Source of the DNA: Methanoculleus thermophilus
GTDB taxonomy: Archaea; Halobacteriota; Methanomicrobia; Methanomicrobiales; Methanoculleaceae
Reading direction: 5' to 3'
DNA: 64,000 nucleotides
Assembly (NCBI RefSeq): GCF_001571405.1
Contig: NZ_BCNX01000003.1
Span: 186,001 to 250,000 of the forward strand
Shown: positions 43,136-53,986 of the stretch, in pieces
How positions within the stretch are numbered: the stretch's first letter is position 1
How the letters are laid out: the number at the start of each line of letters is the position of its first letter
Notes under the pieces: generated by a model
Databases searched by the model: none
Seen by the model: only the letters and a program-made list of their open reading frames with translations
What the model was told of the DNA's origin: nothing
Translations under genes and position numbers: made by a program

Positions 43136-43648
43136 TTATCCGTTCAGTAGCTCACTGACCCGCACAAGCGCCATAAGCGATACGCCAATTTCAGCAAGCG
43201 CCCTATCAGCGCCCGCTTCCCGGTCAACAACGGTCACCACCCGGTCGACATGGGCGCCTGCGGCACGCAGCGCTTCAATCCCATAGAGGGCGCTTCCTCC
43301 GGATGTGGTCACATCCTCAACGAGCAGTACGTTTTTGCCGCTCACGTCGCCGATGATCGTCCCGGCCTTGCCGTGATCCTTTTCCGTTTTCCTGATGATT
43401 GCGTAGGGTCGCCCGCTTGCAAGCGAGACGGCGACAGCAATCGGGACAGCACCGACGGCCACTCCAGCCACCGTATCAAACTCCTGATCTTTGGCAATGG
43501 CTTCTCCGATTGCTGCAAGAACCGTAGGATTTGTTGTTGCAGCTTTGATGTCGATGTAATAAGAACTTCTGGCTCCGGACGCGAGGACAAAGTCCCCGAA
43601 CTCGATAGCCCTGCTCTCAATCAACAGTTTCGCGATTGGGTTTACCAT
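43136..43648 (-). CDS. pyrE: Orotate phosphoribosyltransferase
   Basis: Converts orotate and PRPP to OMP, 170 aa. The PRPP-binding motif is [14 protein letters not shown], with [17 protein letters not shown] at the N-terminus and the flexible-loop lysines in [13 protein letters not shown]. The first bases overlap the carS end by 7 bp. pyrC in this window and carAB feed the same pathway. Confidence 0.96.
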
Positions 43649-44184
43649 GGTACGTCTTTAACTCCGATGTAGTAGCCGATAATGTTCACTATTCGGTGAA
43701 GCAGAGGTGTCATGATGATGATCCAGACTGCAATGGGTAAGGTAATATTCTCGAACAACCACTGGGGGTAAATCAGGAGGATGAGCAGAAAGGAACCGAT
43801 AACTAAGTCATACTGATCGGCCAGGAACCAGGACTCGCCCCGCTCCTTGCCCAGCCTCCGCTTCAGGAAGCTCTTGGCAAGATCGCCAAGGAGCGCGCCT
43901 GACGAAAGCAGCGTAACGGAGAGGATGGTCTGGTGGGGAAGAGCTGTCAGGTCAAATGCTCTCCACGCCCAGATCTGTATGAGACCGACCAGCACCCCAC
44001 AGAGTACACCGCCGAAGAATCCTCGGTAGGTCTTACCGTCGCCGAAGATTCGCCTGCCATCACCGCATGTCTTACCAAAGTCGATTGGGGTCCCGCCGCC
44101 GAAGACTGCAGCCGCTGAATTCGGCACATATGCCGGAAGCATAGCCCATAACGCCGCAAATAGCGCTATGACCCAGTATCCCAT
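43642..44184 (-). CDS. carS: CDP-archaeol synthase
   Basis: Integral membrane CTP transferase that activates digeranylgeranylglyceryl phosphate (archaeol precursor), 180 aa with about five helices. The conserved loops PIDFGKTCGDGRRIFGDGKTYRGFFGG and SFLKRRLGKERGESWFLADQ belong to the CarS (DUF46) family and carry the charged catalytic residues. ATG 44184 is preferred over TTG 44205. It is divergent from the Tes-type gene and heads the pyrE-purD-argF operon. Confidence 0.93.
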   Translation of the reverse strand: MGYWVIALFAALWAMLPAYVPNSAAAVFGGGTPIDFGKTCGDGRRIFGDGKTYRGFFGGVLCGVLVGLIQIWAWRAFDLTALPHQTILSVTLLSSGALLGDLAKSFLKRRLGKERGESWFLADQYDLVIGSFLLILLIYPQWLFENITLPIAVWIIIMTPLLHRIVNIIGYYIGVKDVPW

Positions 44185-44218
44185 GTCCGTATTAACAATC
44201 GTCAATGTTCAGTATAAT

Positions 44219-44232: not shown

Positions 44233-44280
44233 ATTAAAGTGTCGAAGTATGAGATACGGAAAGATGGGCACGGTGAGAGA

Positions 44281-45750
44281 ATGCTAATAAAAAAGACAAA
44301 GAGCCTCTGCCCAACATGTGGTCGCGTGCTCGACGCCGAGATTGTTGAGGAGGAGGGAAAGGTTTGGCTGGTCCGTACCTGCTCTGAGCACGGCATGTAC
44401 CGGGCCCTCTACTGGTCGGACGCGGAGATGTACAAGCGATTCGACGCCTATGAGCGTATCGGGAAAGGACTTTTAAACCCGCAGACGACCACGTCCCCCG
44501 CAGGATGCCCTCACGACTGCGGTGTCTGTCAGAATCATCGGTCAACGACGTTGCTTGCAAACATTGACCTGACAAACCGGTGCAACCTCAATTGCGACTT
44601 TTGCTTTGCAAATGCCCGAGCATGTGGTTTCGTCTACGAGCCAACCTATGATCAGGTTGTCGGAATGCTCCGCATGCTGCGCGAGGAGAAACCCGTCCCC
44701 ACACCAGCCGTCCAGTTCTCAGGCGGTGAACCGACGCTGCGTGAGGATCTCCCCGACCTCATCAGAAAGGCGAAAGAGATTGGGCTGTATCAGGTTCAGA
44801 TCGCGACAAACGGTATTCGGCTTGCGCAAGAGCCTGATTACGCCAGAGTGTTGAAAGAGGCGGGACTCTCCACAGTCTACCTGCACTTTGACGGCATAAC
44901 CAAAGAGACCAATACAAAGATCGCAAGCGACAAGCGTGCCATAGAAAATTGCGAAAAGATCGGTCTGGGAGTGGTGCTGGTGCCCACGGTCATCAAGGGC
45001 AGAAATGACCATGAGGTGGGCGACATCATCAGATATGCAGCAGAGCATATCAAGACCATCCGGGGTGTCAACTTCCAGCCGGTGGCGTTCACCGGGGCGG
45101 CGAGTGAGGATGACGTCAGGAAAGAGCGGATAACCATCCCGGAACTTACAGAGCGGATCGAGGAGCAGACAGGCGGCGTTATCAAGAAAGATTACTTCTA
45201 TCCTGTGCCCTGTGTCGTCCCGATCTCCGAACTCGTTGAGGCATATACCGGCAAACCCCAGGTCACGTTCACCACGCACCAGCACTGCGGAGCAGCGACG
45301 TACGTCTTCGTCACTGATGAGGGAATGGTTCCGATTAACAAGATGGTGGATGTCGATGCCTTCTTTGAGTCGGTCGAGAAGATGAAGACGAAACTCTCGA
45401 AAGGCGGGTCGCTGAATAAGTATATGACCCTCGTCGAGGGCGTCAAGGATCTCTACAATTCAACGAGGAAGGCGGAACAGAAGAATACCGGGGAGTTCCT
45501 GAAACTGATCGGAAAGACGCTCGTGATGCAGAACTTCGAGGCCCTGCGAGAGTTCCACTGGAATGCCCTCTTCATCGGCACGATGCACTTCATGGACAAC
45601 TACAACTACGACCTCTCCCGGGTGGAGCGCTGCTGTATCCACTACGCGACTCCAGACGGCCGTCTGATCCCGTTCTGCACATACAACAGTGGTCCCATCT
45701 ACCGAGAAAAGGTCTGGAAAGCCTTCGCACAACCCCAGAAAGACGAGTAA
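44281..45750 (+). CDS. tes: Radical SAM tetraether-lipid synthase-type enzyme (Tes family, MJ0619-like)
   Basis: 489 aa. The Tes family joins two archaeol chains between terminal carbons to make tetraether (GDGT) lipids. N-terminal cysteines CPTCG and the segment CPHDCGVCQNH suggest an extra cluster or metal site; the radical SAM motif is CNLNCDFC, and SGGEPTLREDLPD is the GGE motif. The last 100 residues hold CCIHYATPDGRLIPFC, another cysteine set. ATG 44281 (GGTGA upstream, family N-terminus LIKKTKSLCP) is used, not the GTG at 44239. Neighbour carS supports a lipid role. Confidence 0.85.
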   Translation: MLIKKTKSLCPTCGRVLDAEIVEEEGKVWLVRTCSEHGMYRALYWSDAEMYKRFDAYERIGKGLLNPQTTTSPAGCPHDCGVCQNHRSTTLLANIDLTNRCNLNCDFCFANARACGFVYEPTYDQVVGMLRMLREEKPVPTPAVQFSGGEPTLREDLPDLIRKAKEIGLYQVQIATNGIRLAQEPDYARVLKEAGLSTVYLHFDGITKETNTKIASDKRAIENCEKIGLGVVLVPTVIKGRNDHEVGDIIRYAAEHIKTIRGVNFQPVAFTGAASEDDVRKERITIPELTERIEEQTGGVIKKDYFYPVPCVVPISELVEAYTGKPQVTFTTHQHCGAATYVFVTDEGMVPINKMVDVDAFFESVEKMKTKLSKGGSLNKYMTLVEGVKDLYNSTRKAEQKNTGEFLKLIGKTLVMQNFEALREFHWNALFIGTMHFMDNYNYDLSRVERCCIHYATPDGRLIPFCTYNSGPIYREKVWKAFAQPQKDE

Positions 45751-47082: not shown

Positions 47083-47754
47083 TCAGATTCGCCCGCCCTG
47101 CACGCCCCGTATCGAGAGCCGGATCAAGCCCAGGTTGGCGTCAGGCTCTGCGAGTATGCAGAGGGCAAGATCCCCGTAGGGTGCGATGATAAGTTTCCCT
47201 GCTGGGGTCTCAAGGATCATCTGCGATAGGTGCCCCATCTCCATATCGCCGGTTATCCGGGTGCCGGCCCGAAGCAAGTCCTCGGCGATCGCAGCCACCT
47301 GCTCAAAGTCGGCAGAGCCGAGCGACTGAAGGGGAAATCCCTCGTGAAAGACCGAGACGGCAACGACACCCGGCTGACGTGCGATCTGCTCAAGACCGTC
47401 CCTGCTCATCGGCCCGGAACCGGGAAGGGGCATGAGATCATTCCTGTTGACCATATACCCCATCTCTCGCGAGGTGGCCCGGGCAACCTCGATCTCTCTT
47501 GCGGTATACGCGATGAGTTCGTAATCAAGGGACGTCTGGCTGATCAGGTGCCTGTAGGCATCGTCTCCACCGAGCGACAGATCGCCGTCGGCGCTCTCAA
47601 ATGCCGCCGCATACGGGTTTCCATCCTCTGTCAGGATAAAGCCGGTCCCGGAGGGGCCATCAATTCGCACCGCTCCCGTGAAGTGAGGATTGATGGAGGC
47701 AAGGGCCGAAAGAGGCCCTTGTATCCGCCCGAGTGAGACGCCATCGGGTAGCAT
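47083..47754 (-). CDS. Two-domain protein: DUF2226-like N-terminus plus roadblock/LC7 C-terminus
   Basis: 223 aa. Residues 1-95 (LPDGVSLGRIQGPLSAL, HFTGAVRIDG) resemble the N-terminal domain of the 209-aa protein encoded at 52777-53406. Residues 115-220 (DGLEQIARQPGVVAVSVF, GDMEMGHLSQMILETPAG) are a roadblock/LC7 domain, a dimeric fold that often partners small GTPases. It is the last gene of the hydrogenase operon, four bp after a stand-alone roadblock gene. Function unknown; the context suggests regulation or positioning of the hydrogenase. Confidence 0.75.
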   Translation of the reverse strand: MLPDGVSLGRIQGPLSALASINPHFTGAVRIDGPSGTGFILTEDGNPYAAAFESADGDLSLGGDDAYRHLISQTSLDYELIAYTAREIEVARATSREMGYMVNRNDLMPLPGSGPMSRDGLEQIARQPGVVAVSVFHEGFPLQSLGSADFEQVAAIAEDLLRAGTRITGDMEMGHLSQMILETPAGKLIIAPYGDLALCILAEPDANLGLIRLSIRGVQGGRI

Positions 47755-47758
47755 CGTC

Positions 47759-48106
47759 TCACAGTGCAGCGATGATACGATCCTTATTCTTCTTCAGCTC
47801 GTATCGGATCCGCCCGACATTGACGTTCGCATTCGCCACGATGGCGATCAATTCGTCCTCAGTGAGCGGAGCGAGGAGGATGGGTCCGTTCTCCAGTTCG
47901 ATGAGCATCTGGTGCATCTCCCCTTTGCCGAGTTCGTTGCTCATCGCTTCGGAAGTACCCATGCCGGTCGAGGCCATGGCGCCCAGGGCCTCGACATCCA
48001 CGTCCCCGGCAACGACACTCTCGATCACAAAACCGTCCCGCCCAGCTACGACTGCGGCGGTAACGCCATCAAGTCTTAAGAATTCACTCAGGATCTGTTT
48101 TAACAT
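47759..48106 (-). CDS. Roadblock/LC7 domain protein
   Basis: Single roadblock/LC7 domain of 115 aa: an alpha helix MLKQILSEFLRLDG, strand VTAAVVAGRDGFVIES, central helix, then ENGPILLAPLTEDELIAIVA and a C-terminal helix. Roadblock proteins dimerise and in archaea are often encoded beside GTPases; here no small GTPase is present but a MinD ATPase is encoded nearby. It lies 9 bp downstream of the hydrogenase large-subunit stop, with GAGGTGA before the ATG. Confidence 0.88.
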   Translation of the reverse strand: MLKQILSEFLRLDGVTAAVVAGRDGFVIESVVAGDVDVEALGAMASTGMGTSEAMSNELGKGEMHQMLIELENGPILLAPLTEDELIAIVANANVNVGRIRYELKKNKDRIIAAL

Positions 48107-48115
48107 TCTTTCACC

Positions 48116-49483
48116 TCACGTTCGTCTGACGCATTCGATCCGGAGAGGCATACGCCCGATCGCATGGGTTGCGCATGAGATACAGGGGTCATACGCCCTG
48201 ATGATCATCTCGATGCGGTTTGCGGCTCCTTCGGTCAGTGCTCCGTTCTCCACCACCCGGCGTGCCATATCCTCCACACCGCGGTCGATCGCGTAGTTGT
48301 TCTGGCAGGTCGCTACAATGAGATTGCACCGCTCTATGATGCCGGCCTCGTTGACGGTATAGTCGTGGATCAGGGTCCCCCGTGGAGCCTCGATGATCCC
48401 GACGCCCCGCCTGTTCACGACCCCTCCTACCGGAGTCCGGGTATCCGATGCAGTGATACCGGGGTCCGAGAGCAGTTCCACCGCCCGCTCGCACGAAGCA
48501 ACGAACTCAATGTAGCGAGCCAGATGATAGGCGAGCGCAGCCTGGGTGACGGCGCCAAACCGCTCACGATATTCTTTGAGGGCGGCATCAGCGTGCTCTG
48601 TGCCCATCCTCTCGACGATGTTGAGCCGGGCGAGCGGCCCGACCCGGTAGTAGTCACCGCCCTTGAACCGGGCGAACTTCAGGTACGACCAGTCCTCCGA
48701 ATACTCCTCGATGAAGTTCGGATACTCCTCGCCGAAGAACGAACCGATCCTCCCCCCATCGGGCCCGAGCATCGCGACGGGCCCTTCGTAGGTTGAGTGA
48801 AGGCCGTGTTTGCTCATACCCATAAACCCGGTCCTGACAGCACCGATCTCCGTATCGACGCCGTCAAGGAGGGTGCGGGCGATATCCCAGCCTTCAAGGG
48901 CGATTTCGAGCGCCTCTTTAGCCATGCCAGCCAGTTCCGCCCTCTTGCCCTCGGTGAGCGGTGCCGACATCCCTCCTGGAATAGCATTTGCCGGGTGGAT
49001 GGGCTTGCCGCCGACGCCCTCCGTCAGGCGCTGGCCGAACTTCCGGACCGCGATTGCCTTCTTCGCAAGTTCCGGCGACTGACGGGCCAGCCCGATGACG
49101 TTCCTGCTCTCCACCGGGGCGTCGTAGCCCAGGATGAAGTCCGGGGCGGCGAGCATGAAGAAGTGAAGCGCATGAGAGTGGACGAACTGGCCGATGTTGA
49201 GGAGCTCGCGGAGCTTCTTCCCGGTCGCGGGCGGCTCCACGCCGAAGATCTGATCGGTCGCTTTCGCCGCCGCCAGGTGATGCGCCGACGGGCATATGCC
49301 GCAGATGCGGGGGGTGATCCGGGGGGCCTCCTCGATTGCAGCGCCGATGAGGAACTTCTCAAACCCTCTGAGCTCGACGACCTGGAAGTGAGCCGAATCA
49401 ACCTCTCCCTGGTCGTTGAGGAAGATCTTCACACCGGCGTGCCCCTCGATCCGGGTCACCGGGCTGATCGTGATCTCTTTCAT
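48116..49483 (-). CDS. mvhA: F420-nonreducing-type [NiFe] hydrogenase large subunit
   Basis: Catalytic NiFe-binding subunit of 455 aa. The L1 motif is RICGICPSAHH (Cys61, Cys64) and L2 is DPCISCATH (Cys434, Cys437, His440), followed by a 15-residue tail that the endopeptidase encoded at 53507-53986 should remove. The sequence fits the group 3 (MvhA/VhuA-like) branch rather than F420-reducing FrhA, since no FrhB or FrhD gene lies nearby. It overlaps the small-subunit gene by 4 bp. Electrons probably go to ferredoxin or heterodisulfide reductase. Confidence 0.9.
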   Translation of the reverse strand: MKEITISPVTRIEGHAGVKIFLNDQGEVDSAHFQVVELRGFEKFLIGAAIEEAPRITPRICGICPSAHHLAAAKATDQIFGVEPPATGKKLRELLNIGQFVHSHALHFFMLAAPDFILGYDAPVESRNVIGLARQSPELAKKAIAVRKFGQRLTEGVGGKPIHPANAIPGGMSAPLTEGKRAELAGMAKEALEIALEGWDIARTLLDGVDTEIGAVRTGFMGMSKHGLHSTYEGPVAMLGPDGGRIGSFFGEEYPNFIEEYSEDWSYLKFARFKGGDYYRVGPLARLNIVERMGTEHADAALKEYRERFGAVTQAALAYHLARYIEFVASCERAVELLSDPGITASDTRTPVGGVVNRRGVGIIEAPRGTLIHDYTVNEAGIIERCNLIVATCQNNYAIDRGVEDMARRVVENGALTEGAANRIEMIIRAYDPCISCATHAIGRMPLRIECVRRT

Positions 49484-50397
49484 ACGCTCCTCTCCTTAAC
49501 GAGGTCCCGTATCTTTGAGTTCTCTTTGTCCTCCATGATCAGGCTCCCGATGGTGAAGGCATACATCGTATGGGCAACATCGTAGAGTTCCTTCTCCACC
49601 TCTTTTGCAGGCTTATCGGTGAGATCCGATATCCTGCGCACCATCATGCTGTAGATATCCCGGCAGGGTTCGCGGAGAATATCGAGCGACGGTCCGTTGC
49701 ACCCATGGCATGGGACGTTGTTCTTCGGGCACGCCGCGGAACACCTCCCGAAGGTGACGCTCCCTAGGCACAAGTAGCCCTGTCCGAGGAGACAGTGCTC
49801 GCGGTCGGGAATACCCTCGTGTCGCCGCGAAAGCTTCCAGCCCTCGACCGGCCCCATGATCCGGTCACACTCGGAGCAGACGGACTTGCGCGAGAGTTCA
49901 AGGGTGTCCCCCTTGATCATCGCCGGGATGATCTGCTTTAAGAAGGCCTCTTTTGGCGGGCAGCCCGTGATATAGTAGTCAACCTTCACGAGGTCGCCCA
50001 CCGCAAACGCCCGGTAAAGGAACGGCGGCACATCCGTAGGGATAGCGCCGTTAGGTTTCACCGTATCCACACCCTGGTAGACGCAGGAGAAGAGGTCCTC
50101 GTTTGAGTTCAGCATTGAGAGACCCGATATGCCGCCATAGCAGGCGCAGGTCCCAAACGCCACCAGCGTCTTTGCCCGCCTCCGGATCCTCTCGAGGTGT
50201 TCCTGGTTCTCCGCGTTTCGGACAGCGCCGGTCACGAATGCTATGTCAATACCCTCAGGTGGCTCTTTTACATCCATGATCACCGGAGAGTAGACGATGT
50301 CAGCGTCCTTGACGATGTCAAGGAGCATCTCGTGGAGATCGAGCACTGCAATCGTGCATCCCGAGCAGCCTGCCAGCTCCTCAATAGCAATTTTCAT
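49480..50397 (-). CDS. mvhG: [NiFe] hydrogenase small subunit, MvhG-like
   Basis: 305-aa iron-sulfur subunit that passes electrons from the NiFe site. The proximal cluster is formed by CSGC (Cys11, Cys14), GTCACYGG and TGCPP. A second half carries SVCSECDRIMGP, LLGQGYLCLGSVTFGRC and CPKNNVPCHGC, the extra clusters seen in MvhG/HoxY-type subunits. Its neighbours are the V4R gene upstream (9 bp) and the large subunit downstream. MvhD, which normally links Mvh to Hdr, is absent from this locus. Confidence 0.9.
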   Translation of the reverse strand: MKIAIEELAGCSGCTIAVLDLHEMLLDIVKDADIVYSPVIMDVKEPPEGIDIAFVTGAVRNAENQEHLERIRRRAKTLVAFGTCACYGGISGLSMLNSNEDLFSCVYQGVDTVKPNGAIPTDVPPFLYRAFAVGDLVKVDYYITGCPPKEAFLKQIIPAMIKGDTLELSRKSVCSECDRIMGPVEGWKLSRRHEGIPDREHCLLGQGYLCLGSVTFGRCSAACPKNNVPCHGCNGPSLDILREPCRDIYSMMVRRISDLTDKPAKEVEKELYDVAHTMYAFTIGSLIMEDKENSKIRDLVKERSV

Positions 50398-50406
50398 CCT
50401 TCCACC

Positions 50407-50970
50407 TCATTTTAAAATCAGTTTCTTTAAGCAGGCATTCGGACCGGTATGAACGATCTCTAACTTGGCTCTCCTGCCGGTGATCTCCTCGATTGCGCCG
50501 ACGACGTAGCCAAAGAGCGTCTGGCAGAGCGGACCGCCCTGATCGAGGCCGTTGCGCCGGAGAGTCTGGCGGACGATGCAGTCGTGGAAGACGAGATAGA
50601 TGAACGTCTCTCCGTTCTCTTCGATGATGAACGTCTCCTTATCTTCGGGCTTCCAGATCTCAAAGGAGTACTGGCCCCGCAGCAGGTCGGAGAGTTCATG
50701 GAGCGCTCCCTCCACGTCATCGCGTTTCTGGAAGTACTTGGCCACCTCATGGCCGAACTTCTTCCCGGCACGATAGGTGACTGCGTTCGCTCCTCGCCCT
50801 GCGATCTCTTCCAGCGACCGGATCACAAGACCGTTGAGTTTCATCACGCCGTGAAGCGTCTGTTCCAGGTCCTTCGGCCGCGGCGAGCACTCAAGCGGGA
50901 TCTCCTCGGCACGATAGACGAGATCGGAGTGAAAAGCCTCGTGCAGCTCATCGACGTAGCCTGCACTCAT
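50407..50970 (-). CDS. V4R-domain-type protein in hydrogenase operon
   Basis: 187-aa protein. The C-terminal half (CQTLFGYVVGAIEEITGRRAK, then a hydrophobic end ACLKKLILK) matches the V4R fold, a small-molecule/hydrocarbon-binding domain found in many archaea. The N-terminal part has a helical stretch (GRGANAVTYRAGKKFGHEVA) and acidic loops. Only three cysteines are present. The ATG at 50970 overlaps the ferredoxin stop by one base, so it belongs to the ferredoxin-hydrogenase operon. It could be a ligand-responsive regulator of the hydrogenase; this is inference. Confidence 0.72.
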   Translation of the reverse strand: MSAGYVDELHEAFHSDLVYRAEEIPLECSPRPKDLEQTLHGVMKLNGLVIRSLEEIAGRGANAVTYRAGKKFGHEVAKYFQKRDDVEGALHELSDLLRGQYSFEIWKPEDKETFIIEENGETFIYLVFHDCIVRQTLRRNGLDQGGPLCQTLFGYVVGAIEEITGRRAKLEIVHTGPNACLKKLILK

Positions 50971-51212
50971 CAGATCACCTTCCGAAGCATCTCGCAGACT
51001 TTGATGTCGATATAGTGCCTTCGAGCCGGGTAGATGCCCCGATGCTCGAGTGCCTGGGCAGGGCAGATCTCGTGGCAGGACAGGCACCCCATACAGTTAT
51101 TCGGCCTGACCGGAACACTCACATTGTTCAGGAGTTCGTACACATGCATCGGGCAATCTTTGACGCAAAGACCGCACCCGACGCATGCGTCCTTATCCAC
51201 ACGTATATCCAT
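50970..51212 (-). CDS. Two-[4Fe-4S] ferredoxin-type protein
   Basis: 80-aa electron carrier with two cluster motifs, CVGCGLCVKDCP and CMGCLSCHEICP, then a 25-residue C-terminal extension (HRGIYPARRHYIDIKVCEML). It is the first gene of the operon leading into V4R and hydrogenase genes, so it is the likely electron partner of the hydrogenase in place of an MvhD protein. A TATA box lies about 50 bp upstream of its ATG. Confidence 0.93.
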   Translation of the reverse strand: MDIRVDKDACVGCGLCVKDCPMHVYELLNNVSVPVRPNNCMGCLSCHEICPAQALEHRGIYPARRHYIDIKVCEMLRKVI

Positions 51213-51257
51213 TTGTGCGCCTCTGAAAGTGTGGTTATCGCTTCCGATATTAAAACA

Positions 51258-51273
51258 TGGTTATATATGATTT
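51258..51273 (-). promoter_or_regulatory. TATA box of the ferredoxin-hydrogenase operon
   Basis: AATCATATATAACC on the minus strand within an AT-rich 200-bp gap. It predicts a start near 51240 and a leader of about 28 nt before the ferredoxin ATG. Confidence 0.5.
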
Positions 51274-51412
51274 ATTCCATTTAGTAAACAAATTTTCCAT
51301 GCAGAATATGTAATTTCATCAATTTTTATCGATTTTTTCTGATATTCAGTTCTGATAAAAATTTATTTCAAAATGATTGAACCGCTTCCCTGATACAGAT
51401 GGAAGCGACTCG

Positions 51413-52198
51413 TTACTTCGCCCTAAAGAGAGCCCGGGCGAGCCGATCAACAAACCCCTCACGTGGCGCTGGCACCTCCTCTTCGACGTACTCAATGCCG
51501 GCGATATCGGCGGCGATCCGCTTGAAAGCCCGTGACGCATCAGAATTTGGATATTTCACCACGATCGGCGACCTGCCGGCCGAGGCACGTCGAACGTTTC
51601 CGTCTTCCGGTATGATCCCGATCACCCGTACACCGAGGAGTTTCTCCATCTGTGCACGATTGAATTCGTCCCCGCCCCCGGCGACCCGGTTGACGATCAC
51701 TCCCTGGACGTGCCCACCGACAGTCTCGGTTAGGATCTTCGTCTTTAACGAGTCGACAATTGAGGAGATCTCGGGGTTTATAACGAGGATCACCCCGTCG
51801 GCGATCGTCAGCGGGATGACGCCGTCTCTGCTGATCCCCGCAGGAGCATCCAGGATGAGAACATCGAACTCACTCACGAGGTCGGTCATGACATCTTTTA
51901 GCCGGTCTGGATTTGATTGCTGAAAGCCCTGCAGAGAGAGGCCGCATGGGACCACCTTCACACCAAACGGCCCGTCGTAGATGGCATCTCTGATGCGTGC
52001 TTTTCCAGCCAGCACCTCGTGCAGAGTCACCGGCAGGTGCTCAAGTCCTAGAATGAGGCCGAGATTTGCCATCCCTACATCAGCATCCAGGATACATGTC
52101 CTCTTCCCATATTGGGCAAGCATCGGTCCCAGATTGGCTGTGACCGTCGTTTTGCCGGTCCCACCTTTACCGGACGCAATTGTATATACTTTTACCAT
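51413..52198 (-). CDS. MinD/ParA-type ATPase with C-terminal membrane-targeting tail
   Basis: 261-aa deviant Walker A ATPase. The P-loop is GKGGTGKTT at residues 10-18, the switch regions are DADVGMANLG and DAPAGISRDG, and a VNRVAGGG motif follows. The C-terminus GFVDRLARALFRAK is amphipathic, with Phe/Leu/Ala on one face and Arg/Lys on the other, like the membrane-targeting tail of bacterial MinD. ATG 52198 is used; a TTG 30 bp upstream (52228) is less likely. It is last in an operon with a TM-anchored roadblock-like protein and a DUF2226-like protein. MinE and ParB are absent. Confidence 0.85.
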   Translation of the reverse strand: MVKVYTIASGKGGTGKTTVTANLGPMLAQYGKRTCILDADVGMANLGLILGLEHLPVTLHEVLAGKARIRDAIYDGPFGVKVVPCGLSLQGFQQSNPDRLKDVMTDLVSEFDVLILDAPAGISRDGVIPLTIADGVILVINPEISSIVDSLKTKILTETVGGHVQGVIVNRVAGGGDEFNRAQMEKLLGVRVIGIIPEDGNVRRASAGRSPIVVKYPNSDASRAFKRIAADIAGIEYVEEEVPAPREGFVDRLARALFRAK

Positions 52199-52238
52199 AG
52201 AATCACTCGTTGGCTTTGAGTTCTCCAATTCTGATGAC

Positions 52239-52751
52239 CTACACCCAGCGCTGTAAGGCGTCGCGGGCGTCTTGTTTGAGTGCGCTCATCAAATCGGCAG
52301 GGAGGCGCTCCGAAGGACGAGCGATCCCGATCACCTTCTCTCCCCGGTGTGGGATGTCAAAAAGTTCCGCTCCGGTCTCATCGCGAAGCGTTCCCTGCGT
52401 GTAAAGATAACTATACTGTGCGGCCTCGTCCTGTGCTCCAGACCTCGTTGAACCGATGAGGAGGCCGTCTGAGGTTGCCAGCGTTAAGGAGGCAAGGCGA
52501 TACTTTTCACCGATCGCCCTCAGGTGTTCCTCCAGGCTTCCAATCGCCTTGGGATCGAACTCTTTTTGGGTCCGGGCGGGCGCTTGCGCCGGTTGCGCAA
52601 ACGTCGCTTTACCACTTGCGGCGATTCTTTGTTGTTCGCCGGCGAGCGCCCGATCAATTCTTTGAAGGAAGTAAAGAATGCCGGCGAATCCAACTATCAT
52701 CACTGCTGTAATGATCGTGAGGATTACCTGGATGATGCCTATCGGATCCAT
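52239..52751 (-). CDS. Membrane-anchored roadblock-like protein
   Basis: 170 aa: one N-terminal transmembrane helix (residues 5-29, IIQVILTIITAVMIVGFAGI), an Ala/Gln/Pro-rich linker, then a soluble domain from about residue 70 (LASLTLATSDGLLIGSTRS and GEKVIGIARPSE) with the strand-helix look of a divergent roadblock/LC7 domain. This would tether a roadblock-type module at the membrane. It lies between the DUF2226-like gene (25-bp gap) and the MinD ATPase (40-bp gap). The assignment of the soluble domain is tentative. Confidence 0.65.
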   Translation of the reverse strand: MDPIGIIQVILTIITAVMIVGFAGILYFLQRIDRALAGEQQRIAASGKATFAQPAQAPARTQKEFDPKAIGSLEEHLRAIGEKYRLASLTLATSDGLLIGSTRSGAQDEAAQYSYLYTQGTLRDETGAELFDIPHRGEKVIGIARPSERLPADLMSALKQDARDALQRWV

Positions 52752-52776
52752 TCAGTCTTCATCTCCTGCCAAATCT

Positions 52777-53406
52777 TCATGTGTCTTTGTCCTGGATGAG
52801 GTGATCGAGGTGAATTTTCCGGAGAATATCCTTGCAGTTCACCCTGAAATCGCTGACGAGCTGGTCAATGTCTAGGCTCTCCATGTCCTGCATGAGCATG
52901 CTGATCTCATCGCTCTCAGGTTGAGGGTCCTTCGCCTCTTTTACGGGTTTTAATCCCGGCGTGGGGATACCGCGTCTCTCAACGAGCGGCTCCGGGCGAC
53001 GTTTTGGCATGGAAGGCATATCAACTCTCCCTGGCCCCATCTGAGACTTCATCCTCACGGACCTGCCTTTAGACGGCGGGGTTTCCAGATCTTTACCGCT
53101 ATCAGCGACTGCAAACGGTTTGTTGAACTCCAGAGCAAGTTGAATCTGCTCGGGTGTCAGGGTGTTCAATTCAGCCGCTGCTTCGCTATCTCCGTCCTCT
53201 AACGCCATATCAAGTGCATGCTGCCCTTTCAGGCCCCCGTATTCGGCAAGCACCACTTGACCTTCATTCAGCACCAGGATGAGACTCTTACTGCCAAGGA
53301 CGATTGTGCAGATCCCGGTGAACCGTTCTGAGCCCATCTCTTCTATCAGGGCACGGGATTTCGTGGACTTGAGAAGACGATGGAACCGACCTCGTGGCAG
53401 TTGCAT
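52777..53406 (-). CDS. DUF2226-like protein, 209 aa
   Basis: Residues 1-100 (LPRGRFHRLLKSTKS, ERFTGICTIVLGSKS, LVLNEGQVVLAEYGG) form the DUF2226-like domain, sharing fold and order with the N-terminus of the 223-aa protein at 47083-47754. Residues 105-165 are Pro/Arg/Lys-rich and probably disordered; the final 45 residues (SMLMQDMESLDIDQLVSDF) are amphipathic helix. It is first in the operon with the TM-roadblock and MinD genes. Function unknown. Confidence 0.72.
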   Translation of the reverse strand: MQLPRGRFHRLLKSTKSRALIEEMGSERFTGICTIVLGSKSLILVLNEGQVVLAEYGGLKGQHALDMALEDGDSEAAAELNTLTPEQIQLALEFNKPFAVADSGKDLETPPSKGRSVRMKSQMGPGRVDMPSMPKRRPEPLVERRGIPTPGLKPVKEAKDPQPESDEISMLMQDMESLDIDQLVSDFRVNCKDILRKIHLDHLIQDKDT

Positions 53407-53439
53407 AAAGACTTCTTCAGCTCAGTGCTATTAACATAT

Positions 53440-53456
53440 ATCATATTATTTATAGA
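53440..53456 (-). promoter_or_regulatory. TATA box of the DUF2226-roadblock-MinD operon
   Basis: TCTATAAATAATATGA on the minus strand in a very AT-rich 100-bp gap, about 35-45 bp upstream of the ATG at 53406. It gives this operon a promoter separate from the hydrogenase operon. Confidence 0.55.
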
Positions 53457-53506
53457 TTTCTATATTGTTATGATGTGTATATCGCTTATAGTTACATTTA
53501 AACGTA

Positions 53507-53986
53507 TTAAGAAACGTTGTCTACCGGATCAGCCCAATCCCGCAGGATCATTTCTATCTCTTGCCTGGCAACCTCGATCGCTGCTTTGACTGCCTGGTCC
53601 ATCTCCTGACTGAATGCGCGGATCTCGCCCACCTCAATCCCAACCACCACAATCTCTGCGACATACCCGAGTTCACGGGCTATTGCTACCACCTCTCCAA
53701 TCCCGATATCATGGAGCGCGCATATCGGAAGATCCCAGGACGGCGGCACCTTGAGGACACGGACATCGCCAATATGGTCGCCGATACCCTGCATTGCATC
53801 GACAATCACGACCTTCTCGTATCCTTCCATCAGAGGGATCAAGCCCATTCCCCCGGATCCACCATCGATGGCGTCGATACCGGCAGCATCTCTCCCTTCA
53901 AAGTATTGCATCACCAGAATTCCTGCTCCGTCATCTCCCATGAAGGGGTTTCCACATCCTATGATGGCAATCCGGTTCTTTTTCAT
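53507..53986 (-). CDS. Hydrogenase maturation endopeptidase
   Basis: 159-aa nickel-dependent protease (HycI/HyaD/FrcD family) that removes the C-terminal tail of the hydrogenase large subunit after Ni insertion. Conserved metal and substrate motifs: GCGNPFMGDDGAGI (Asp/Glu site), DAMQGIGD and ALHDIGIGE with the conserved His. It is close to, but not in the operon with, the hydrogenase large subunit that still carries a removable tail; hypC, hypA and hypE lie 6-8 kb away. Confidence 0.92.
   Translation of the reverse strand: MKKNRIAIIGCGNPFMGDDGAGILVMQYFEGRDAAGIDAIDGGSGGMGLIPLMEGYEKVVIVDAMQGIGDHIGDVRVLKVPPSWDLPICALHDIGIGEVVAIARELGYVAEIVVVGIEVGEIRAFSQEMDQAVKAAIEVARQEIEMILRDWADPVDNVS

Follow-up and report, generated by a model that had tools for sequence, protein, structure and literature searches.

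What a [NiFe] hydrogenase does among genes for small regulatory switch proteins is the question raised by a ten-gene cluster of Methanoculleus thermophilus, which lies in a window of 64,000 nucleotides (contig NZ_BCNX01000003.1, positions 186,001 to 250,000; coordinates below are those of the window). The cluster belongs to a 2.22 Mb genome and is encoded entirely on the minus strand, reading from 53986 down to 47083 as hydrogenase protease, DUF4388-like protein, putative membrane-anchored roadblock protein (mRobl), MinD, ferredoxin (Fdx), V4R protein, hydrogenase small subunit (HydS), hydrogenase large subunit (HydL), Roadblock/LC7 protein (Robl), and a second roadblock domain fused to a DUF4388/DUF2226-like domain (RoblFus). 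A preliminary description, made from the sequence of this locus, had supposed that MinD and the roadblock proteins place or gate a soluble hydrogenase at the membrane. Comparison across genomes suggests giving up this mechanism in favor of an H2 input to a pilus switch, in which the cluster would be a hydrogenase-based, H2-responsive input module joined to the roadblock-MinD switch of the archaeal PilB3-type type IV pilus (T4P). We hold this reading, which draws on gene order and conservation, with about even confidence.

The last six genes form a tight operon, as had already been seen at the outset. The ferredoxin (50970..51212, 2[4Fe-4S] type, Pfam Fer4 families) is its first gene and overlaps the V4R-fold protein (50407..50970) by 1 bp, a gap of 9 bp leads to HydS (49480..50397), HydS and HydL (48116..49483) overlap by 4 bp, and Robl (47759..48106) and RoblFus (47083..47754) follow after gaps of 9 and 4 bp, so that no gap or overlap exceeds 9 bp. 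Ahead of it, across a gap of 200 bp, the companion genes on the same strand likewise agree with the preliminary description, namely MinD (51413..52198), mRobl (52239..52751), the DUF4388-like protein (52777..53406), and a HycI-type hydrogenase maturation endopeptidase (53507..53986; Pfam HycI 55.6 bits against a cutoff of 23, and TIGR00072 101 bits, over cutoff).

Relatives were compared in six families of the order Methanomicrobiales (f1 to f6) and in an Archaeoglobi-type (f9), a distant (f10), and a Methanocella-type (f14) lineage. The exact order Fdx-V4R-HydS-HydL-Robl-RoblFus is present in 52 of 59 distinct hydrogenases with long flanks, and 50 of these 52 loci carry MinD or a T4P ATPase within the fetched flank. 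Of the other seven, two loci run into contig ends, two belong to remote bacterial hydrogenases, and three, of f9 type, have another order. The HycI gene adjoins the cluster in f1 and part of f2. Orthologues of HydL are present in f1 to f4 and absent from f5 and f6, and the V4R gene follows the same pattern over 150 genomes. Presence in these genomes is nested, with Robl found in 69 of the 71 genomes that have V4R, and a T4P gene in 95 of the 97 that have Robl; the exceptions are fragmented assemblies, and one of the two cases of V4R without Robl has its operon cut at a contig end. As a mark of chance, the preliminary description had named relatives with roadblock/MinD genes far from any hydrogenase and with a hydrogenase operon lacking them. 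The first half of this pattern was found, in that relatives have roadblock/MinD genes and no such hydrogenase. A hydrogenase without the roadblock/MinD module, the second half, was seen only at two f9 loci (L145 and L147) and at some contig-edge loci, which, together with the 52 ordered loci and the nested presence, rules out a chance neighbourhood. The functional neighbourhood proposed earlier thus stands, and by their conservation the genes of the cluster form one evolutionary unit.

The purpose of this unit is suggested by where it lies in other families. In f3, f4, and part of f2, the hydrogenase operon is located inside a pilus locus, where a divergent prepilin peptidase gene is followed by the operon, a gene for a protein of 200 residues, a PilB3-type ATPase gene, and two T2SSF genes, and the loci of f3 and f4 additionally hold the DUF4388-like and MinD genes. 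Pfam matches at the pilus loci include T2SSE, PilB3_C (over cutoff), T2SSF, and Arc_PepC_II, and the prepilin peptidase is of the A24 type. Family searches and fetched stretches of the source genome of the window showed an equivalent pilus locus without hydrogenase on another contig (L106; C6:363-371 kb). As a side observation, the protein preceding the PilB3 ATPase at the pilus loci examined (200-235 residues, L106:10832-11539 and orthologues) has no confident Pfam family, and in f5 it adjoins the prepilin peptidase gene instead.

Family f5, which has neither the hydrogenase nor V4R, carries Robl within about 4 kb of a T2SSF gene in some twenty genomes. All seven f5 loci that were read (L175-L181) contain Robl and RoblFus, followed in six of them by PilB3 and two T2SSF genes, the seventh stretch ending at that point, and a DUF4388-mRobl-MinD set is divergent from the Robl-RoblFus pair. 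Part of f6 (L182-L184) has pilus genes only. Moreover, two deletion scars record how the hydrogenase was lost. At one of them (L188, 8778-8990, G083), the first 22 residues of Fdx adjoin the last part of HydL, V4R and HydS are gone, and Robl, RoblFus, and the pilus genes are retained; the other (L185, 7984-10250, G075) has lost hydrogenase, V4R, Fdx, and MinD and has kept Robl, RoblFus, mRobl, and the DUF4388-like gene.

Since the gene set persists at the T4P locus without hydrogenase and the roadblock genes outlast its deletion, the roadblock/MinD switch can be assigned to the pilus. Comparative gene order places the roadblock, DUF4388-like, and MinD genes with the T4P locus, and places the hydrogenase, ferredoxin, and V4R genes there in some lineages, with absence or loss in others. 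Roadblock genes as mere hydrogenase subunits were considered and rejected, since they are present without the hydrogenase in f5 and at both scars. The hydrogenase itself looks like an input to the pilus switch and not its cargo. The membrane placement supposed earlier agrees with the conserved amphipathic tail of MinD, the predicted membrane helix of mRobl, and the adjacency of the genes; however, a module that stays at the pilus in hydrogenase-free genomes does not behave as one with the hydrogenase as its general cargo, and we consider this mechanism improbable. In two genera (g17 and g31; L035:5010-7163, L052, and L053), another, diverged Robl-RoblFus pair is encoded divergently from the hydrogenase operon; in L035 and L053 it comes with a small protein of 74-79 residues and a HAMP-like membrane protein.

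The identity of the switch proteins was examined by profiles and predicted folds. Robl matches Pfam Robl_LC7 with 66 bits, over cutoff, and RoblFus matches it over residues 122-202 (34 bits, over cutoff), as do 25 of 25 RoblFus relatives. No Pfam family was matched by mRobl, whose AlphaFold2 model (pLDDT 79.6) consists of a long N-terminal helix and a roadblock domain, with MglB as the best Foldseek match, ahead of Roadblock/LC7 and Ragulator (E about 1e-3). The mRobl profile compared with that of Robl was negative (hhalign, 1% probability), so the assignment of mRobl as a roadblock protein is one of predicted fold. The DUF4388-like protein is homologous to the N-terminus of RoblFus (hhalign 92%, E 8e-7), and both lean to DUF4388 (E 0.002-0.04 overall, 0.04 in the window protein, and 0.0023 in the best relative of the DUF4388-like protein). 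The label DUF2226, given to these proteins earlier, is hardly supported, with a trace in 2 of 25 RoblFus relatives (E 0.03), and DUF4388 is favored.

The MinD/FleN-family ATPase (TIGR01969, 322 bits against a cutoff of 202) has a deviant Walker A motif, GKGGTGKT, and a C-terminal amphipathic tail, GFVDRLARALF, which resembles the membrane-targeting tail of bacterial MinD; both are conserved in 20 relatives. Its orthologues favor the ATG at 52198 over the TTG at 52228 as the most likely start of translation. Roadblock proteins regulate NTPases, and MinD is the sole NTPase among the cluster genes, which is why MinD is proposed as their target. No small GTPase gene is found in the cluster, and a small GTPase partner was rejected after a single weak Arf-family match (24 bits) elsewhere in the genome.

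The V4R protein is not matched by the Pfam V4R model, and its assignment comes from the predicted fold (pLDDT 70.5), which Foldseek relates to PoxR at E 1.6e-5 and to the V4R sensor domains of PoxR, MopR, and DmpR at about 2e-5, with TRAPPC3 and MJ1460 among the lower matches. Alignments of relatives showed four conserved residues, C131, C149, H174, and C180, which possibly form a metal or redox site. Mean pairwise identity within the order is 80% for Robl (across 4 families), 77% for HydS, 77% for Fdx (from 25 relatives), 76% for V4R, 70% for MinD, 68% for HydL, 43% for RoblFus, 39% for mRobl, and 27% for the DUF4388-like protein. These values suggest that V4R and Robl are constrained about as much as HydS and more than HydL.

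The hydrogenase subunits belong nearest to VhuA and VhuG, and both fall below the equivalog cutoffs of these families (HydL 400 against 800 bits, HydS 237 against 450 bits). HydS has all Mvh-type cluster cysteines, and HydL has both CxxC motifs intact; in alignments of relatives the active-site motifs of HydL are invariant and the cysteine columns of the small subunit are conserved. HydL extends 15 residues beyond DPCISCATH, and the methanogen members are likewise extended. Large subunits that end at DPCLSC(A/S/T)H without a C-terminal peptide are encoded by the f9 members L145, L146, and L147, and also at L174:5641-6891. Selenocysteine at the in-frame TGA of f9 HydL was considered and rejected, the TGA being a normal stop right after this motif. 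In the phylogeny, the V4R-linked hydrogenases of methanogens and Methanocella form one clade (support 100/100), apart from Hdr-linked Mvh.

These features bear on a metabolic explanation, in which the enzyme is an F420-non-reducing hydrogenase (Mvh) that passes H2 electrons to heterodisulfide reductase (Hdr) or ferredoxin, V4R and the roadblock proteins serve in its assembly or as accessory subunits, and co-regulation accounts for the linkage to the pilus. Previous studies have placed homologs there: Memar_1007-1008 were assigned to Mvh, with MvhD located by HdrABC (Anderson 2009, PMC2686161), and the hydrogenase locus at 993.9 kb of 2,478,101 bp is consistent with that gene number; MCP_2492-2493 were listed as Mvh as well (Sakai 2011, PMC3146512). 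The intact active site and Fe-S cysteines, the protease, and the C-terminal extension, together with the nearest families, suit such an enzyme. However, of the genes predicted within 10 kb of the hydrogenase in the window, none was recognised as HdrABC or MvhD, in contrast with the Hdr-type neighbours at nearly all of the fetched hydrogenase loci lacking V4R. Methanocella carries both kinds, with a second, separate Mvh beside Hdr genes in at least two genomes (L149 and L167), while f5 and f6, with H2 users among them, live without this hydrogenase although they belong to the same order. The metabolic explanation also leaves the tight, ancient linkage to the roadblock, MinD, and PilB3 genes unexplained, and we regard it as rather doubtful.

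The linkage extends beyond the order. In four Methanocella-type genomes, the six genes are followed by genes for a DUF4388-like protein, an unknown protein, and MinD. An Archaeoglobi-type locus (L146) carries V4R, HydS, Fdx, HydL, mRobl, MinD, Robl, and RoblFus on one strand. Two genomes of the distant lineage f10 (L144 and L193) have Fdx, V4R, HydS, HydL, PilB3, and T2SSF in a single run, with MinD divergent beside it in L193, and these loci give independent support for the pilus link, as the surrounding gene order differs. Beside the V4R-linked hydrogenase, L146 (6780-7505, 241 residues) and L193 (5454-6230, 258 residues) each encode an unnamed protein; the C-termini are alike by eye, and the two are possibly a further shared part of the system.

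The operon-like order with PilB3 and T2SSF in f10, with ferredoxin as an electron outlet, could also be read as a hydrogenase that exchanges electrons with a pilus engaged in extracellular electron transfer, and the syntrophic life of methanogens and their relatives would fit. We think this very improbable, since the clusters showed no recognisable cytochromes or other electron-conduit genes, the linkage is to genes of the pilus motor and switch and not to pilins, and neither V4R nor roadblock proteins carry electrons.

The preferred reading, an H2 input to the pilus switch, can be set out as a chain in which H2 sensing, the direction of signalling, and every link are read from gene order and conservation. 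The hydrogenase would oxidise H2 and deliver electrons via the small subunit to ferredoxin; this transfer may alter the state of the V4R protein, with its three conserved cysteines and histidine; V4R would then signal to the roadblock proteins, one of them putatively membrane-anchored, which in turn may act on the MinD ATPase, and MinD could govern the assembly, number, or position of the pilus. A likely use would be to adjust adhesion or partner contact to the H2 supply. Somewhat short of even confidence, we propose a new archaeal signalling device, in which a [NiFe] hydrogenase serves as the H2 sensor of a pilus through V4R, roadblock, and MinD proteins, and for which the cluster encodes neither kinase nor receptor nor small GTPase.

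Several observations weigh against an H2-sensing input. HydL is extended at its C-terminus and has its own protease, both of which are features of catalytic hydrogenases, and no histidine kinase, other kinase, or other known signalling enzyme is found among the cluster genes. No further Mvh-type large subunit better than 1e-60 was found in the Methanomicrobiales genomes examined, so a metabolic role of the hydrogenase in this order stays conceivable. Pilus genes are absent within about 10 kb of the operon in Methanoculleus, part of f2, and Methanocella. At L145 and L147 the hydrogenase has a divergent roadblock gene and no MinD in the flank, and the tree does not establish a shared origin for the V4R-linked hydrogenases of methanogens and their f9 and f10 counterparts, nor does it reject a single clade (p-AU 0.20).

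H2 is the main fuel of methanogens, and experiments have shown that they respond to it in motility and expression, while to our knowledge no H2 sensor has been established in them. If the proposed reading is true, the cluster is a candidate for such a sensor, and Memar_1007-1008 and MCP_2492-2493, which are now placed in the energy metabolism of Methanoculleus and Methanocella, would have to be re-read, a change that metabolic modelling of biogas and rice-field methanogens would need to take into account. Being found in Methanomicrobiales, Methanocellales, Archaeoglobi-type, and f10 archaea, the device would be either old or widely transferred. As well, roadblock, V4R, and MinD proteins would be tied to a defined machine, the first two of which share folds with parts of the eukaryotic Ragulator and TRAPP.

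Outside the cluster, the window also possesses a gene for a radical SAM protein of 503 residues (44239-45750, plus strand), divergent from a likely CDP-archaeol synthase gene (43642-44205, minus strand). The radical SAM protein resembles the tetraether lipid synthase family, and its gene is also near the hydrogenase operon in Methanoculleus relatives.

No described system with this gene combination was found in the literature searched, in line with the preliminary description, and it seems that the parts are known and their combination is undescribed. Group 3c MvhAG/VhuAG is the closest sequence family, with the cluster cysteines and active-site motifs in common. However, the window subunits reach only about half of the equivalog cutoffs, have no MvhD/HdrABC neighbours, and are linked to V4R, roadblock, MinD, and PilB3; in Methanocella genomes that carry both kinds, the V4R-linked hydrogenases fall in a clade apart from the Hdr-linked Mvh. 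The bacterial H2-sensing regulatory hydrogenases (group 2b, HoxBC/HupUV) are alike in the proposed role, the hydrogenase being the H2 input to a switch. Regulatory hydrogenases have a large subunit without C-terminal extension, which is also the case for the f9 members and unlike the extended methanogen ones. Group 2b differs further as another hydrogenase group that works with a histidine kinase, and the output proposed here is a pilus switch and not transcription. The operon V4R protein shares its predicted fold with TRAPPC3-like proteins and with the V4R sensor domains of PoxR and DmpR, but stands alone in a hydrogenase operon without a DNA-binding or AAA domain, and its conserved cysteines have a counterpart in zinc-bearing V4R/TRAPPC3 (PMC10933270). 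In the MglA-MglB polarity switch, a Ras-like GTPase is paired with a roadblock GTPase-activating protein; the predicted fold of mRobl is nearest to MglB, but the cluster has no small GTPase gene. Finally, MinD and roadblock proteins have been noted at euryarchaeal T4P loci in a survey whose main text makes no mention of a hydrogenase or V4R there (PMC4858521), and the PilB3-type T4P of that survey has PilB3_C, two T2SSF, the A24 prepilin peptidase, MinD, and roadblock proteins in common with the loci described here.

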